Made by a program: the position numbers and the translations under genes. Below are positions 739 through 6,968 of a stretch of DNA of 7,934 nucleotides, piece by piece. Numbering within the stretch: position 1 is the stretch's first letter; the number at the start of each line of letters is the position of its first letter. The notes under the pieces were generated by a model. It was not told where the DNA came from. It worked only from the letters and a program-made list of their open reading frames with translations, and made no database searches. The DNA lies in the NCBI GenBank assembly GCA_902495955.1, contig CABUZE010000034.1, positions 1 to 7,934 of the forward strand, given 5' to 3'. This DNA comes from an uncultured Collinsella sp. GTDB lineage: Bacteria; Actinomycetota; Coriobacteriia; Coriobacteriales; Coriobacteriaceae.

Positions 739-764
739 GCTCGTTTCCTTACATGAGTTCATCG

Positions 765-797
765 AAATCAAAACGCCCGCCCGTCGGCGGCGCTTTT
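765..797 (-). terminator. Terminator-like hairpin in the presumed clpC leader
   Basis: Bases 770-797 form AAAA-CGCC-GCC paired with GGC-GGCG-TTTT around a CGTC loop: about 11 base pairs with one single-base bulge on each side. On the minus strand the stem is followed by TTTTGATTT, as in an intrinsic terminator. On the plus strand it is followed by TTTTGTCTCTTT, so it could act in both directions. It ends about 30 bases before the clpC start codon, too close for a full promoter to fit after it. It is therefore either the end of the tetR transcript or an attenuator inside the clpC leader. Confidence 0.5.
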
Positions 798-841
798 GTC
801 TCTTTACCCACAGGTCGTCTATGTTAACAGCTGGAGGAATA

Positions 842-847
842 TCTATA
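842..847 (-). promoter_or_regulatory. Possible -10 element for clpC
   Basis: On the minus strand a TATAGA hexamer within TTTATAGATATT resembles a sigma-70 -10 box and is the most AT-rich spot between tetR and clpC. The -35 region at 17-base spacing (CCTGCA) matches the consensus poorly. If real, transcription would start near 835 and give a leader of about 95 bases that contains the 770-797 hairpin. This is a weak call. Confidence 0.25.
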
Positions 848-878
848 AACCCGGCTCACATGAATGCAGGTTATGACC

Positions 879-904
879 GCATCGCGGGACTCACCGCGCG
901 ATGC
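879..904. repeat. Perfect 8-bp inverted repeat downstream of tetR
   Basis: GCATCGCG (879-886) and CGCGATGC (897-904) are perfect reverse complements around a 10-base loop. The hairpin starts 27 bases after the tetR stop codon. It lacks a T-tract on either strand, so it is not a standard intrinsic terminator. It may protect the 3' end of the operon mRNA or be a regulatory dyad. Confidence 0.4.
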
Positions 905-930
905 GCGACGGGCGCCCCGCAAGAGAAACC

Positions 931-1620
931 CTAGACGTCTTTCACCACGTCGGGACTCGTCGCTCGCGATGCGCGATAGGCATCGGCCTCCTTGGAGACG
1001 CGTTCGAGCAGCTCGGATGTATCGACGCCCTCGACTTGCGCGACCGTTTCAACCGTCTGCATGGCGACTGCCCTCAGGTACGCGCACGCGCTGTCCCCCA
1101 GCTGCTCGAGGTCTATCTCCTCGCCGCCCTCCCGGGCAAAGCCGACCGCCATCACAAAGCCCATGATGCCCGAGACCAGAAAGCCCACCGCAAAGCTCGA
1201 ATCTGCCTTGAGCTCTTCTCCGTCGGGGTGGACGATCTCTCTCACGCGGTCGATGATGATCGTATGGATGCCCTGCACGACCTGCTCGGCGGCACCCGCC
1301 CTCATGGTGATGACGATGCGCCGCAGCAGACAGCGGACGTCGCGCCGGTCGAACGCCGAAAGGTCGCCCTCGCTCGAAAAATGCCAGAGGGCATCGGTGA
1401 TGAGCTCGTTATCCTGCAGCAGCTGGGCTATGGCGATGGCGACGAGTTCATCGAAATCGTGAAAATAGTAGTAAAACGTTCCGCGATTGCACTGGGCGGC
1501 GCGGGTCACCTCGCCAACCGACAGCTCGAAGATGCTGTTGTTCTCGATGAGCTCCCAAAACGCCTCGATGATACGGGTGCGTGCATCGGGCGCATCGGCG
1601 TCCTTACGCGGTCTCGCCAT
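931..1620 (-). CDS. TetR-family transcriptional regulator, probable regulator of the operon it ends
   Basis: A 229-residue protein of typical TetR length. The N-terminal DNA-binding domain is clear: after a basic MARPRKDAD start comes TRIIEAFWELIENN (helix 1), then the helix-turn-helix SVGEVTRAAQCNRGTFYYYF (about residues 34-53) and HDFDELV. The long helical C-terminal region, which in this family binds the ligand and dimerises, shows no named subfamily to me. I chose ATG 1620, which has GGTGAGG just upstream; a GTG at 1629 would add three residues and is an equal alternative with AGGGG before it. Either way the gene overlaps the end of the large upstream gene (stop 1606-1604), so the two are co-transcribed and probably translationally coupled. 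Its likely target is the 21-bp palindrome at 6093-6113 ahead of the operon, which would make it autoregulatory. The ligand is unknown; a lipid or acyl-CoA is an inference from the partner gene. Confidence 0.9.
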   Translation of the reverse strand: MARPRKDADAPDARTRIIEAFWELIENNSIFELSVGEVTRAAQCNRGTFYYYFHDFDELVAIAIAQLLQDNELITDALWHFSSEGDLSAFDRRDVRCLLRRIVITMRAGAAEQVVQGIHTIIIDRVREIVHPDGEELKADSSFAVGFLVSGIMGFVMAVGFAREGGEEIDLEQLGDSACAYLRAVAMQTVETVAQVEGVDTSELLERVSKEADAYRASRATSPDVVKDV

Positions 1621-4600
1621 GCGCCTCACCGCACCCCTGCGCCTTGGCGTTCATGATGAGCATCTGAAGACGGTTCTCCACGTTGGCGAAGCTCACGTCG
1701 GGATCGTAGTCGAGCGGCAGGAACTGCGCCGTGGGATACTGCTCCTTGAGCGCATGGATGAGCCCGCGCCCCACGACATGGTTGGGCAGACACCCGAACG
1801 GCTGCAGGATCACGAAGTTGCGGCAGCCGCGCTTGGCGTGCTCGAGGATCTCCGCCGGAATCAGCACGCCCTCGCCCGCATCGAACGTATGGTGCAGGAT
1901 CTTATCGCTCGCGCGCACGAGCTCGGGCATGCGCGTCGGCGGCTCGTAGAGCGGGCTCGCCGCGCCCAGGCGGTCGCAACGGTCGTGCGCGAGCTCGAAC
2001 AGGTTGTCCGCCGTGGCGTACCAGGCCTTTTCGGGCAGCGACAGGTCGACGTGGAACTCGCGCGACTGCGCATGCTTGTAGAAATAGGTCTTGCGGATCA
2101 CGTCGGTCATGCGCGCCTCGATGACCTCGAGCCCGTTGTCCTCGAGGTAGCGCTCGATCTCGTGGTTGGCGCCGAGATGGAAATTGAGCAGGTACTCGCC
2201 CACGATGAGAACGGTCGGATGCGGGTTCGAGCGGTCGTACGGAACGGCGTCCATGATCGCAAGCGCGCGTTTGAAGCCCGTCGCCTGGCCTCTCAGCCCC
2301 GAGCGCTCCATGCCCTCGATAACCTCATCGAGCGCGCGGTCGAACGCAGCGTCCGCCGCGCCCTTCTCGAGCTCATAGGGACGGATGCGCCTAAGCATGG
2401 CCTCGAGGGCATCGATCATGGGAAGACCGTAGGCGATCTGGATGCTCGGGCCAAGGCCGAGCTTGAAGCCCGGATGCGCATTGTGGGCATCGACGTCGTC
2501 GTTGGTGAGCACCGGGACATAGTCGTATCCCGCGTCGTCGAGCGCGCGGCGCAGCAGGGGCATGTAGTGCGTCAGGCGGCAGTCGCCGATATACTTGCCA
2601 GTCACCACGGCGACGTCGTGCGGGTCGTACTTACCGCTCTCGAGTGCCGCGAGCGCCTCGCCGATCACGATTTGCGCGGGGAAGCAGATGTCGTTGTGCA
2701 CATAGCGTTTGCCCAGGCGGATGGCATCCTCGCGCCCGATATCAAGGGCCTCGGCGCGCACGCCCTGATTGCGCATCGCCGCGGTCATGAGCCTGCAGAA
2801 CGCATGAGAGGTGTTGGGGACCAGCGCGATCTTGTCGTGCCGGTCGCGCTTGATGTACTTGACCTTATACGGGTCGTCGAGCGGATGGACCGCGTGCACC
2901 CGGGCGCCCTCGGCACGCTCCTCCGCGCGACGACGGTTGACCGACTCGATAAACGAACGCACGCGAATGCCCATGGGACCGGCGACGTCGCTCTCATCGA
3001 GCTTGATCATCATCGGAACCTTGGAGCCCATCTCGCCCATCATGCGCGCGATCTCGTCGGTGAGATACGCATCGTGGCCGCAGCCGAAGCTGCCCATCTG
3101 CACGAGCTCGAGCTCGGGCGTCGATGCGACGATGACCGCGCACGACAGCATGCGCGCATGGTAGTTGTTCACGATGTCGATGCGGCTGTTGGAAAGATCG
3201 ACGTTGCAGACCCCCGGCACCGCATCGGGCGTCAGCACGGGGATGCCGCGCTCAGAGAAGAGCTTGGGCAGCCCGTGGTTGACCAGCGGGTCGTTGTGGT
3301 ACGGGCGCGAAGCGATCACCACCGCGTAGCCGCCGTCCTCGCGCACGTTCTCGAGCACCTGCCTGCCGCGCAGCTGCAGCTGGTTCTCAAACGTCTCCTG
3401 CGCGCGGTCCGCCTGCTCGGTCGCCTTGGCAATCAGGTCGGCATCGATATCGAAGGTCTCCTTGCACCACGCCTTGAGCTGGCGGTTTCGGTCGCCCTCG
3501 TCGTACCAGTGGAACAGCGGCGTATCGAACGGAACGCCGAAACGCTCCTCCGGGTTATCGGAATTGCGCATCACGTAGGGGTATCCCTTTACGACGGCGC
3601 ACATCCACTCGCTGGTAGAGGCGGTGTTTTCGGTGGGCACCGTCGTGATGATGGGCATGAAGATGCGGTCGACGCCGGCGTCGACGAGATTGCGGATGTG
3701 CCCGTGGACGAGCTTGGCCGGGAAGCACACGGTGTCGGATGTGACGTGCGCCAGACCGCGCTCGTACATCGCCTTGGTGCTGCGTCCCGAGACGCGCACC
3801 TTAAAGCCGAGCGTGCTGAAGAACGTCGACCAGAACGGCAGGGTGTCCCAGAACTCGAGCACACGGGGAATGCCGATCGTGACATCGCGCCCCCCGCAGA
3901 CGGGAACCGTGGGGTACGACTCGAACAGCAGCTTCTCGCGGTCGACAAAGAGATTGGGGGCAGCCGCGGTCCGGTCGCGCCCCGTGCCGGGTGCCTGTAC
4001 CTCGCAAGCACCCTGCGGACGCAGCTCCTCCGCCGCGGGAACCTCGCGCACGAGCTCATCCCATGAGATGGCGCCGCCGCGCGGGCAGCGATTGCCCGTG
4101 ACGTAAAGCGAGCCGTCGCCAAATGCCACGACCGCGCGCTGGCAGCGGTTGTTGCACCGACGGCAGGTAACGCCGCCGAACTCGCGATGCTCGAAGCGCT
4201 CCACGGCATCGAGCCCGATAAACGACGTGTCGGCGTCGCCCTTGCGGCATTCCTCGCGCGCGAGCAGGGCGATACCGATAGCGCCCATCAGCCCCGGGTG
4301 GGGCGCACGCGTGACGGGTTTGCCCAGATACTGCTCGAATGCGCGCAGCACCGCGTCGTTTCGGAACGTGCCGCCCTGGACGACGACTTTGTCGCCCAGA
4401 CGGTTGAGATTTGAAACGCGAATGACCTTGGTGAACACGTTCTCGATAATCGAACGGCAGAGACCGGCCATGATGTCGCCCGGACCCTTACCGCGCCGCT
4501 GCTCGGAAACGACGCTGCTGTTCATGAACACCGTGCAGCGGCTGCCGAGAACGGCGGGGGCTTTGGACGAAAATGCCTCGGTCGCGATATCCTCAACGGC

Positions 4601-6043
4601 TATTCCGAGGTTTTTGGCAAAACCCTCGAGGAACGAGCCGCAGCCCGCAGAGCACGCCTCGTTGACGACGATATCGGTCAGCACGCCGTGGTTGAGCCAG
4701 ATGGCCTTCATATCCTGTCCGCCGATGTCGAGCACGAAGGTCGCATCGGGAACGCATGCGCACGCGGCGCGGGCGTGCGCGACCGTCTCGACCGTATGGT
4801 AGTCGGCGTGGAACGCGCGCGCGAAAAGCTCCTCGCCGTATCCCGTGGTGCCCACGGCATCGATCGCAAGCGTGACTCCCGCTGTCTCCCAGCGGTTCTT
4901 CAAGCTGACAAGACCCTGTTGGGCGACGTCGAGCGGTCTGCCGTTATTAGACGCGTAGAACGATTCGACAAGCTCACCCGCCTCATCGACCAGGGCGAAC
5001 TTGGTCGTCGTGCTCCCCGAATCGATACCGAGCGCCACACGCACCGTCTCTCCGGGCGCATACGCATCCGGACCCTTTGCCGGCGTCTCTTTGCCATGGC
5101 GTGCCGTAAAATCCGCCTGCTCGGCAGGTGTGGCAAAAAAGGGCTGGGCAAGACGTCCCTCCCCGCTTGCGGGCGCGACCGTCTCGAGCTTATCCAGCCG
5201 GACAAAAGCGTCGGGAAGGTCGATCGGTTGGGACGATGCGAACATGTCGGTCAGCGACAGGGCGGCACCGCGCGCGACCATGATCTGCGGATCGCGCGGG
5301 ACGATAACCTGATCGTCCGATAGATTCAGTTGCTCCCGGAACACGCGGACCAGTGTGGGGTTGTAGGCGAGCGTACCGCCCTCGAAGATTACCGGCGGCT
5401 CGATGTCGATACCCTGGGCCAGACCGCCGATCGTTTGGCGGGCGACCGCGTGAAGCGCCGAAAGCGCCAGGTCGGTGGTAGGAATGCCCTCGTTGAGCAG
5501 CGGCTGGATATCGGTCTTTGCGTACACGCCGCAGCGGCCCGAGACCTCGTGGACGGTCGTTCCCCGGCTTGCGAGCTGCTCGAACTCGCCCGATTCGGTG
5601 CCGACCCCCATGAGCTTTGCCATCTCGTCGATAAATGCACCGGTACCGCCTGCGCACGAGCCGTTCATGCGCATGTCGGCAACCTCGATGTCTCCCTTAT
5701 CGTTGGTGCGGAAGAAGATCATCTTGGCGTCTTGGCCGCCCAGCTCGATGGCGCAGCGCGTCTGCGGATAGAACCTGCTGATCGCGAGCGCGTTGGCGAC
5801 CACCTCCTGAACGTACGAGGCGCCCAGCGCGGTCGCGATATCGCGCGCACCCGAGCCGGTCACCGCAACGCGCAGCGACTCATGGGGAAAGCGCTCGGCG
5901 AGCTCGCCGAGCATGGCGCGCACGCTCGCTGTCTGACACGCCCCGTGGCGGCGATATCCCCACCACGCCTCGGTCATATCCTCGTGCATCGCGTAAACTT
6001 TGGTCGTCGTCGACCCTACGTCCAGTCCTACTAGCAACGCCAT
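1604..6043 (-). CDS. Single-chain 2-hydroxyacyl-CoA dehydratase activase/DUF2229/HgdB-like protein; probable fused plasmalogen synthase (PlsA-PlsR type)
   Basis: A 1479-residue protein. Activase domain 1 (about 1-268) has ATP motifs DVGSTTTK (8-15), LGGQDAK (101-107) and EGGT (221-224), with C130 (SCAGGTG) and C171 (GRCGVY). Activase domain 2 (about 335-598) repeats them: DSGSTTTK (341-348), IGGQDMK (440-446), QGGT (556-559), C464 (ACSAGCG) and C503 (SRCTVF). A CxxCxxxC motif follows (627, 630, 634, plus C653). Then come two HgdB/DUF2229-like halves with cysteines C773 (TVCFPAK), C815, C988 (SFGCGHD) and C1120 (DICFPAQ), C1155, C1418 (PFGCLPN). In this family the activase uses ATP to push one electron at very low potential into the dehydratase-like iron-sulfur site. 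No signal peptide or clear membrane segment is seen. The architecture equals Clostridium PlsA plus PlsR (recalled), suggesting reduction of ester phospholipids to vinyl ethers. The family is sure; the substrate is inference. Start ATG 6043 has GGAG four bases upstream. The tetR gene overlaps its end. Confidence 0.93.
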   Translation of the reverse strand: MALLVGLDVGSTTTKVYAMHEDMTEAWWGYRRHGACQTASVRAMLGELAERFPHESLRVAVTGSGARDIATALGASYVQEVVANALAISRFYPQTRCAIELGGQDAKMIFFRTNDKGDIEVADMRMNGSCAGGTGAFIDEMAKLMGVGTESGEFEQLASRGTTVHEVSGRCGVYAKTDIQPLLNEGIPTTDLALSALHAVARQTIGGLAQGIDIEPPVIFEGGTLAYNPTLVRVFREQLNLSDDQVIVPRDPQIMVARGAALSLTDMFASSQPIDLPDAFVRLDKLETVAPASGEGRLAQPFFATPAEQADFTARHGKETPAKGPDAYAPGETVRVALGIDSGSTTTKFALVDEAGELVESFYASNNGRPLDVAQQGLVSLKNRWETAGVTLAIDAVGTTGYGEELFARAFHADYHTVETVAHARAACACVPDATFVLDIGGQDMKAIWLNHGVLTDIVVNEACSAGCGSFLEGFAKNLGIAVEDIATEAFSSKAPAVLGSRCTVFMNSSVVSEQRRGKGPGDIMAGLCRSIIENVFTKVIRVSNLNRLGDKVVVQGGTFRNDAVLRAFEQYLGKPVTRAPHPGLMGAIGIALLAREECRKGDADTSFIGLDAVERFEHREFGGVTCRRCNNRCQRAVVAFGDGSLYVTGNRCPRGGAISWDELVREVPAAEELRPQGACEVQAPGTGRDRTAAAPNLFVDREKLLFESYPTVPVCGGRDVTIGIPRVLEFWDTLPFWSTFFSTLGFKVRVSGRSTKAMYERGLAHVTSDTVCFPAKLVHGHIRNLVDAGVDRIFMPIITTVPTENTASTSEWMCAVVKGYPYVMRNSDNPEERFGVPFDTPLFHWYDEGDRNRQLKAWCKETFDIDADLIAKATEQADRAQETFENQLQLRGRQVLENVREDGGYAVVIASRPYHNDPLVNHGLPKLFSERGIPVLTPDAVPGVCNVDLSNSRIDIVNNYHARMLSCAVIVASTPELELVQMGSFGCGHDAYLTDEIARMMGEMGSKVPMMIKLDESDVAGPMGIRVRSFIESVNRRRAEERAEGARVHAVHPLDDPYKVKYIKRDRHDKIALVPNTSHAFCRLMTAAMRNQGVRAEALDIGREDAIRLGKRYVHNDICFPAQIVIGEALAALESGKYDPHDVAVVTGKYIGDCRLTHYMPLLRRALDDAGYDYVPVLTNDDVDAHNAHPGFKLGLGPSIQIAYGLPMIDALEAMLRRIRPYELEKGAADAAFDRALDEVIEGMERSGLRGQATGFKRALAIMDAVPYDRSNPHPTVLIVGEYLLNFHLGANHEIERYLEDNGLEVIEARMTDVIRKTYFYKHAQSREFHVDLSLPEKAWYATADNLFELAHDRCDRLGAASPLYEPPTRMPELVRASDKILHHTFDAGEGVLIPAEILEHAKRGCRNFVILQPFGCLPNHVVGRGLIHALKEQYPTAQFLPLDYDPDVSFANVENRLQMLIMNAKAQGCGEAHGETA

Positions 6044-6075
6044 AATGCTCCGTCTCTCGCATTTTTCCTGCTAGA

Positions 6076-6081
6076 GATATA
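6076..6081 (-). promoter_or_regulatory. Likely -10 element of the dehydratase-like/tetR operon
   Basis: The minus strand reads GGTATATCTC here; TATATC is a reasonable -10 hexamer 32 bases upstream of the start codon at 6043. The -35 position at 17-base spacing (6099-6104, GTCTGT) is weak and falls inside the 21-bp palindrome, as expected for a promoter blocked by a repressor bound there. Confidence 0.4.
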
Positions 6082-6092
6082 CCACTCTACGT

Positions 6093-6113
6093 AATACAAC
6101 AGACTGTTGTATT
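6093..6113. promoter_or_regulatory. 21-bp perfect palindrome, candidate TetR operator
   Basis: The arms AATACAACAG (6093-6102) and CTGTTGTATT (6104-6113) are exact reverse complements around a single central A. The size, single-base centre and position 50 bases upstream of the operon's start codon fit a TetR-dimer operator overlapping the promoter. The natural binder is the TetR protein encoded by the last gene of the same operon. AT-rich composition rules out a strong terminator, and there is no loop for a hairpin. Confidence 0.72.
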
Positions 6114-6123
6114 TAAACTCCGT

Positions 6124-6158
6124 ATAAAATGCGGCTGCCGAAACGCTTCAGCAGCCGC
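6124..6158 (-). terminator. Intrinsic terminator after the DUF2798 gene
   Basis: In minus-strand RNA, GCGGCTGCTGAA pairs with TTCGGCAGCCGC around a GCGT tetraloop: 12 base pairs counting one U-G wobble. ATTTTATAC follows directly. It lies about 165 bases after the DUF2798 stop codon and just before the operator and promoter of the next operon, so it insulates the two units. Confidence 0.75.
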
Positions 6159-6270
6159 CGAATGCACCAACAGATTGTTCTGCGCGCTAGCACGTCGGGC
6201 AACGGAGCAGCACGGGCCCTCCGGTCATGCGCACCGCTCACGCCCGCGATGCCGCCGAGAGAGCTATCCA

Positions 6271-6322
6271 CGCTTAGGGCTCCAACCAAGCAAGTCGCCC
6301 GCGCTCAGCAGATCCCTAAGCG
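6271..6322. repeat. 9-bp perfect inverted repeat right after the DUF2798 stop codon
   Basis: CGCTTAGGG (6271-6279) and CCCTAAGCG (6314-6322) are exact reverse complements with a 34-base loop. The right arm begins two bases after the DUF2798 stop codon. There is no T-tract; it may fold as a 3' stem in the mRNA. The rest of 6159-6270 shows no gene or motif I recognise. Confidence 0.35.
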
Positions 6323-6324
6323 AG

Positions 6325-6873
6325 CTACTCGCACTCAGGAGCCATAGCCTGCTCCAAGAGCTCGGCATGCTCCTCCTCGAAAACCGTCCCCACAGGGAAG
6401 GCGCGACGGAAGACGAAGTGGGAAATCGGACCGGCTACCAAAAGGTTCCACGGCAGCGCCATCACAAAATTATGCGGGATGTTGATCATCCAGATCGCGG
6501 GCACGGAATACAGGTTCGCAAGGATGCCACCGGGCATGTGCGTCAGACCCTCGCAGGCACCGTACAGCGACATGATGATGACCATGGGAACGACCATGCA
6601 GGAGCTGACGGCGAGCGTCATGGCGAGCGGCGAGCTCTTGCCCGGAGTGACCAAGTACTTAAAGGCGAAACCCTTGGCGAGCGGGCTGGCGACGAACCAG
6701 TCGCAGCACATGGCAAAAATGTAGGCAACGGGGAAGCCGAGCCACGCAGCGGCAACGACCTCGCCGTTGATGGCCCCATGCTGCAGGGCAACGTTGTAGA
6801 TGCTCATCCAGAGCACCATGCAAAAGCACATGATAAAGGTGAACAGCAGGCTCTCTCGTTTGTTGATAGGCAT
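6325..6873 (-). CDS. DUF2798 family integral membrane protein
   Basis: A 182-residue, strongly hydrophobic protein with four predicted membrane segments, roughly residues 9-29, 38-62, 83-104 and 125-152, and a short acidic cytoplasmic-type tail (FEEEHAELLEQAMAPECE). The sequence is a tandem duplication: the first half (CMVLWMSIYN, then FPVAYIFAM..DWFVASPLAKGF) is echoed in the second (CMVVPMVIIMSLYG, then IPHNFVMALPWNLLVAGPISHFVF), as in two-repeat DUF2798 proteins. The function of this family is unknown to me; a transport or membrane-stress role cannot be read from the sequence. I chose ATG 6873 because MPINKRESLL starts just before the first membrane helix and AGAGGA lies 11 bases upstream; an alternative start at 6933 would add 20 residues running through the leader. 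It stands alone, bounded by a leader hairpin and a downstream terminator. Confidence 0.82.
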   Translation of the reverse strand: MPINKRESLLFTFIMCFCMVLWMSIYNVALQHGAINGEVVAAAWLGFPVAYIFAMCCDWFVASPLAKGFAFKYLVTPGKSSPLAMTLAVSSCMVVPMVIIMSLYGACEGLTHMPGGILANLYSVPAIWMINIPHNFVMALPWNLLVAGPISHFVFRRAFPVGTVFEEEHAELLEQAMAPECE

Positions 6874-6897
6874 GAAGGGCAGATTCCTCTCTGTGTT

Positions 6898-6909
6898 GTG
6901 CCGCGGCAC
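6898..6909. repeat. 12-bp perfect palindrome in the DUF2798 leader
   Basis: GTGCCGCGGCAC reads the same on both strands and lies just upstream of the AGAGGA ribosome site of the DUF2798 gene. It has no loop, so it is more likely a protein-binding dyad or chance than an RNA hairpin. GC-rich 12-mers of this kind can occur by chance. Confidence 0.25.
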
Positions 6910-6916
6910 CACGCAA

Positions 6917-6968
6917 CAAAAACGGGCGGGCAAGATGGAGCTGTTGGGACTTCATCTCGCCCGCCCGT
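6917..6968 (-). terminator. Strong intrinsic terminator hairpin upstream of the DUF2798 gene
   Basis: ACGGGCGGGC-AAGATG (6922-6937) pairs with CATCTC-GCCCGCCCGT (6953-6968): 15 of 16 pairs, with a 15-base loop. On the minus strand the stem runs into TTTTTG (6917-6921), the classical form. It ends about 44 bases before the DUF2798 start codon and 220 bases after the thrE stop. It may end the thrE transcript, or act as a leader attenuator for the DUF2798 gene, since there is little room for a promoter after it. Confidence 0.75.

Follow-up and report, generated by a model that had tools for sequence, protein, structure and literature searches.

A one-chain ATP-dependent reductase of Collinsella, sister to the known plasmalogen synthases, may represent a second type of these enzymes

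The stretch of DNA analyzed here (the window) comprises 7,934 nucleotides of an uncultured Collinsella sp. (contig CABUZE010000034.1, assembly GCA_902495955.1) and encodes a single-chain, ATP-dependent reductase with an adjoining TetR-type regulator gene (Table 1). The original prediction, made from the sequence, took the enzyme for a probable fused PlsA-PlsR plasmalogen synthase in which two activase domains, a cysteine motif and two HgdB-like halves share one reading frame. The host is Collinsella aerofaciens, as the window protein is 99.3% identical over its full length to the product of a gene in NZ_OY725717.1 annotated 'acyl-CoA dehydratase activase'; the 90% cluster of the window protein holds 20,293 member sequences.

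The predicted domain layout was borne out. Pfam places two BcrAD_BadFG activase stretches and a DUF2229 domain on the window protein, and a search of the Protein Data Bank (PDB) sequences aligned the HgdC and HadI structures to residues 337-610. The same search with the reductase halves, run with a single query and with a profile of 27 sequences, returned significant matches to activases only. The folds of these halves were therefore taken from prediction, which gives an HgdB-type fold for both. Fourteen cysteines of the presumed electron path are common to the rows of our alignment from the three groups compared below, W, Pls and Ger. Together these results confirm that the window gene is a genuine fusion of two activase domains, a four-cysteine linker and two reductase halves of predicted HgdB fold.

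Table 1. Features of the window and their coordinates.
Feature	Position	Strand	Remarks
Clade-W fused ATP-dependent reductase	1604..6043	minus	1,479 aa, stop codon counted in
Activase domain 1, residues 1-300, C130 and C171	5144..6043	minus	BcrAD_BadFG stretch; invariant cysteines
Activase domain 2, residues 337-600, C464 and C503	4244..5035	minus	BcrAD_BadFG 338-595; invariant cysteines
Linker, residues 601-715, C627/C630/C634/C653, predicted [4Fe-4S] site	3899..4243	minus	Cysteines invariant in W, Pls and Ger; cluster putative
Reductase half 1, residues 716-1065, contains DUF2229, C773/C815/C988	2849..3898	minus	
Reductase half 2, residues 1066-1479, PlsR-like part, C1120/C1155/C1418	1607..2848	minus	
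TetR/AcrR-type regulator gene	931..1620	minus	Overlaps 3' end of enzyme gene by 17 nt
Perfect palindrome, 21 bp, arms of 10 with 1 base between	6093..6113	unstranded	Candidate TetR operator
Terminator-like hairpin, 12-pair stem	6131..6158	minus	Upstream of palindrome

A DUF2229 search of the same 0.9 Mb Collinsella record retrieved a second fused gene, ULD52_RS08810, which encodes 1,593 residues. It is annotated as a 2-hydroxyacyl-CoA dehydratase and has a TetR-like gene directly upstream; a TetR gene upstream of pls is also reported for E. faecalis EF1326-EF1327 (PMC9702350). The ULD52_RS08810 product is 50% identical to the Listeria homologue, versus 35% for the window protein, and 45/39% identical to the two chains of the split Fusobacterium A/R pair, versus 37/28%. 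Identity between the window protein and the Pls-branch fusions compared amounts to 34-36%. Published values for Enterococcaceae and Streptococcaceae homologues against PlsA/PlsR of Clostridium perfringens are 48-55/41-42% (PMC12838417). L. monocytogenes, reported to be a plasmalogen maker (PMC9702350), has a single DUF2229 gene in its 2.9 Mb record.

Trees were calculated from 53 and 54 rows, one sequence on a very long branch (X_G051) being left out after the first. Both trees place the window protein in a clade, here called W, with a Shimodaira-Hasegawa-like approximate likelihood ratio test (SH-aLRT) support of 100. Its rows come from Coriobacteriia, Clostridia, Spirochaetes, Fibrobacter, Haliovirga and one deltaproteobacterial metagenome-assembled genome (MAG). 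The sister of W (SH-aLRT 99) is a Pls clade with Collinsella ULD52_RS08810, Listeria and the split Fusobacterium pair, to which the second tree adds the presumed genomes of E. lenta, A. parvulum and C. curtum; the Ger of Thermotoga lies outside both clades. In these comparisons Listeria, the split Fusobacterium pair, E. lenta and A. parvulum stand in for the PlsA proteins assayed from E. faecalis, B. longum, L. cremoris and C. perfringens. No clustering with a characterized dehydratase or benzoyl-CoA reductase was seen, in agreement with the original prediction, and the nearest full-length fusions outside W are Pls-clade proteins. The identities and the trees rule out the window gene as the host's PlsA-PlsR orthologue, a place taken by ULD52_RS08810. 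Since the Pls-branch gene of Collinsella is another gene in the same genome, the window gene is a deep paralogue. Of the original assignment, an ATP-driven fused reductase of the PlsA-PlsR/Ger superfamily remains. We met no earlier description of a separate clade W in the literature searched, a search outside which stood the 2021 C. perfringens gene paper and the 2022 Ger paper.

The relationship to Ger (glycerol ester reductase) was examined with a Thermotoga gene. DUF2229 occurs in 57 of 103 Thermotogota genomes. The genome G091, which we take to be T. maritima MSB8, has a single DUF2229 gene of 1,415 residues, presumably Ger, which is 24% identical to the window protein and 24-28% identical to the Pls proteins compared. 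In the alignment, 224 columns reach at least 90% conservation within every one of the three groups W, Pls and Ger. Of these, 135 are identical in all three groups. W shares its residue with Pls but not Ger in 67 and with Ger but not Pls in 7; in 2 W alone is distinct, and in 13 each group has its own residue. In the reductase halves, W goes with Pls in 29 conserved columns and with Ger in 4. The low identity, the distant branch and this column pattern rule out W as a Thermotoga-type Ger. A rule based on one versus two activation domains has been published (PMC13274423). It does not separate the groups here, because two BcrAD_BadFG stretches were found in all six proteins inspected (two W, three Pls, one Ger), even at a threshold of 1e-8.

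An association of W with plasmalogens comes from Fibrobacter. With the window protein as query, 71 genomes gave exactly one match each, a full-length W at 46-48% identity. Because each genome gives this single match, no Pls or Ger gene was found by that query in any of the 71. We call these genomes Fibrobacter-like because the Fibrobacter succinogenes major domain occurs 15-91 times in each of the 25 that were tested. In controls, three other members of the phylum had 0, 6 and 21 copies and four Coriobacteriia and Thermotogota genomes had 0; the domain also matches in a Bacteroides ihuae control. In a wider genome sample, G191 has W at 48% identity and no other match, and the G191 protein is 65% identical to a protein named Fibrobacter sp. 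by NCBI; the phylum of this genome, to which the 71 also belong, has a match in 145 of 167 genomes. A 1963 report on F. succinogenes, under its former name Bacteroides succinogenes, described a high aldehyde-to-phosphorus ratio, and plasmenylethanolamine is given as a major polar lipid of this species (PMC9702350). The word 'plasmalogen' is absent from two F. succinogenes papers (PMC3079729, PMC10308913).

Twelve further genomes of the same phylum have W split into two open reading frames (ORFs) near residue 600. As the activase pair is there apart from the reductase, tethering of donor to acceptor is not obligatory. The cut in these genomes (G926, G940, G943, G944, G945, G949-G953, G958 and G1003; separate contigs in 10 of the 12) falls between the activase pair and the linker with the reductases, a different point from that between PlsA and PlsR.

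In Coriobacteriia, W was found in at least 46 of 246 genomes, at 54-99% identity over the pieces listed. Pls-type matches in the same 246 genomes were strong (E at most 1e-160) in 174, weaker only in 49 and lacking in 23; of the 174, 128 had no W among the matches listed. The genomes are related, and these counts are not independent trials. The original prediction held that coriobacterial lipids contain dimethylacetals, and published fatty acid compositions agree: 16:0 dimethylacetal makes up 29.4% in E. lenta, and 18:1 dimethylacetal 24.1% in A. parvulum and 19.9% in O. uli. Papers on Slackia and Cryptobacterium gave no dimethylacetal data, and, judged by the titles listed, no report on the lipids or dimethylacetals of Collinsella itself was found. 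The genomes taken as E. lenta (G639) and A. parvulum (G688) have Pls and no W among the matches listed. With abundant dimethylacetals in both species, Pls seems to be enough for plasmalogens in Coriobacteriia, and presence of the window gene does not track plasmalogen content across the class.

The two Collinsella genes have different regulators beside them. The homologue of the regulator gene of the window is annotated TetR/AcrR in NZ_OY725717.1, and its product scores 22.0 bits for TetR_N, below the Pfam cut-off of 24. A probable TetR partner gene, as had been predicted, adjoins the enzyme gene, and its product would act as a repressor. At 15 of 20 coriobacterial W loci, including three near-identical C. 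aerofaciens copies, a related gene lies downstream of W, in the same orientation and overlapping it; no such gene was detected at the other five or at any of the 12 Fibrobacterota W loci. At 22 of 23 coriobacterial Pls loci, a TetR gene of another type immediately precedes Pls, and the window TetR has no meaningful similarity to the Collinsella Pls TetR. The 22 loci (L013:7141-12644, L100-L104, L106-L111, L119-L128) belong to gut anaerobes; a review describes the Pls TetR regulator as absent from strict anaerobes (PMC9702350). At the exception, L105 (G657:C1:2530000-2543000), two adjacent long ORFs are more distant paralogues, 28% and 46% identical to Pls, and the genome also carries Pls.

The palindrome of Table 1 lies between the start codon of the enzyme gene and the hairpin. 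When the 281-nt upstream region was shuffled 2000 times, arms of at least 10 arose in 3 of the shuffles. The palindrome is unique within the 28 kb of the Collinsella locus (L001) at up to 3 mismatches, and three unrelated palindromes with arms of at least 10 lie elsewhere in these 28 kb. Nor is it repeated at the Collinsella Pls locus, where one match at 3 mismatches was obtained with 0.38 expected. Three other W loci (L133, L136, L137) share a different palindrome, TTTTTAGACA..TGTCTAAAAA, some 85-110 nt ahead of the W ORF. It is unlike that of C. aerofaciens save for the ACA..TGT centre and is possibly a divergent operator. The hairpin is weak evidence, because five terminator-like sites were found in 740-6400 with 3.0 expected.

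Further upstream, NZ_OY725717.1 has genes for a hypothetical protein, a threonine/serine exporter and housekeeping functions; downstream, the TetR/AcrR gene is followed by a Clp ATPase gene. The window has a 202-aa ORF (6325-6933, minus strand) upstream of the enzyme gene, which looks membrane-bound, corresponds to a hypothetical protein in C. aerofaciens and has no match in Pfam or NCBIfam. In one Fibrobacter-like genome, the prolipoprotein diacylglyceryl transferase gene lgt adjoins W (L150:11009-11902, G1041). A scan of viral contigs gave no relative, and Rfam gave no family.

W is sister to Pls, keeps the cysteines of the presumed electron path and is the only family member found in a lineage with known plasmalogens. 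For these reasons we consider it the likeliest reading, and an even bet, judged from sequence comparisons, that the W one-chain reductase is a second type of plasmalogen synthase. The fuller reading, to which we give a probability of roughly 0.4, is that this second class lies behind the plasmalogens of F. succinogenes and that Collinsella has two parallel vinyl-ether systems, each beside a TetR gene of distinct type. The tandem activase pair would hold one [4Fe-4S] cluster between C130, C171, C464 and C503. ATP binding and hydrolysis there may drive a low-potential electron through the four-cysteine linker to the reductase halves, each carrying a predicted three-cysteine [4Fe-4S] cluster. The ester carbonyl of a membrane glycerolipid acyl group would then be reduced through a ketyl radical, and loss of water would turn the acyl ester into a 1-alkenyl (vinyl) ether. 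In Collinsella, W may be an extra activity beside ordinary Pls, switched by its own TetR at the upstream palindrome.

Several observations weigh against this second-synthase reading. The association of W with plasmalogens holds at about the level of the genus, and the occurrence of W alone in Fibrobacter-like genomes was established with the window query only. Since E. lenta and A. parvulum form dimethylacetals without it, W is not needed for plasmalogens in Coriobacteriia, which also makes W less probable as the chief plasmalogen gene of Collinsella. Among the enzymes compared, the presumed T. maritima Ger is the sole one with a measured product. At 14 of the 17 coriobacterial W loci beyond C. 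aerofaciens, no perfect palindrome with arms of at least 8 lies within 300 nt upstream. All 46 W-bearing Coriobacteriia also have a Pls gene (best piece 65-100% identical to the Collinsella Pls query), and the reductase halves of W are 28-33% identical to those of Collinsella Pls, versus 46-52% for Collinsella Pls against Listeria.

Because the reductase halves differ most and Collinsella already has Pls, another ether product or a non-lipid substrate is possible. Instead of the ordinary sn-1 vinyl ether, W could make a saturated alkyl ether, like Ger, or place an ether at sn-2 or on a glycolipid or cardiolipin, and such a product would account for the retention of W beside Pls. The concentration of type-specific columns in reductase half 2 (16 of 37) points the same way. 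A paper reports that 19 of 28 Spirochaetota MAGs encode Ger homologues (PMC11868695), Spirochaetes carry W, and PlsA and Ger are described as inseparable by sequence alone (PMC13274423). The distance to T. maritima Ger and the Pls-like conserved columns argue against an alternative ether, which would moreover leave the plasmalogens of Fibrobacter without a family gene, and we regard it as unlikely. A slightly fainter prospect is that W uses ATP to reduce or dehydrate a small thioester or another small molecule. Its folds are those of the hydroxyacyl-CoA dehydratases and benzoyl-CoA reductases, and no lipid gene adjoins W among the annotated neighbors at the Collinsella locus. However, W is far nearer in sequence to the lipid-reducing Pls fusions than to the solved enzymes, which match only its activase domains. 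The original prediction had noted that no CoA-transferase, HgdA/HgdB pair or amino-acid fermentation gene is nearby. No CoA-transferase, ligase or catabolic operon was seen among the annotated neighbors at the Collinsella locus, and none was found among the seven neighbors scanned at two Fibrobacter loci. That the window gene is nonetheless the host's fused PlsA-PlsR and main plasmalogen gene, as first proposed, fits the domain order and the coriobacterial dimethylacetals but is very improbable given the separate Pls-branch gene, nearer to Listeria, and the W-free plasmalogens of E. lenta and A. parvulum.

Viewed against characterized systems, W shares the activase-activase-reductase-reductase order of PlsA-PlsR, whether encoded by two genes (C. 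perfringens CPE1194-1195) or by one (PlsA of E. faecalis, L. cremoris and B. longum). It also has the same cysteines and, like Pls in some hosts, a TetR partner, and with the single-gene PlsA it has in common the one-gene fusion. The fused single-gene form had already been published for those three species (PMC12838417). Unlike Pls, W forms a clade of its own, has its TetR gene downstream rather than directly upstream (a position not universal in the Pls family), and occurs alone in Fibrobacter-like genomes but beside Pls in Coriobacteriia. Ger (T. maritima Tmari_0479, D. alkenivorans) is likewise a single chain in which two activase domains, DUF2229 and these cysteines occur; the T. maritima gene taken as Ger is set apart from W by sequence. 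HgdC/HgdAB, HadI/HadBC, the class I benzoyl-CoA reductases and the double-cubane proteins share with W the activase fold with its cysteines and the HgdB-type reductase fold. W differs from them in having donor and acceptor on one chain, an extra four-cysteine linker and no CoA-transferase or substrate operon nearby. A further activase fusion of 1,282 residues, about 26% identical to W and Pls, lies on a Paraclostridium bifermentans plasmid (L005:3992-7840) beside a Crp/Fnr regulator, an ABC transporter and cupins.

A gut study scored species as plasmalogen-positive from the pls Pfam domains (PMC10076029). Because W, Pls and Ger share both Pfam domains found, calls of this kind mix at least three clades. 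The proposal of a plasmalogen synthase survives by a route other than the one first taken, since W is the only family member found in Fibrobacter-like genomes. Collinsella, which has both genes in one genome and a different regulator next to each, offers a clean genetic test. If W does make plasmalogens, the Fibrobacter lineage would gain a gene for a lipid reported sixty years ago; should the product be a different ether, an unrecognized lipid would be present in a common gut bacterium.

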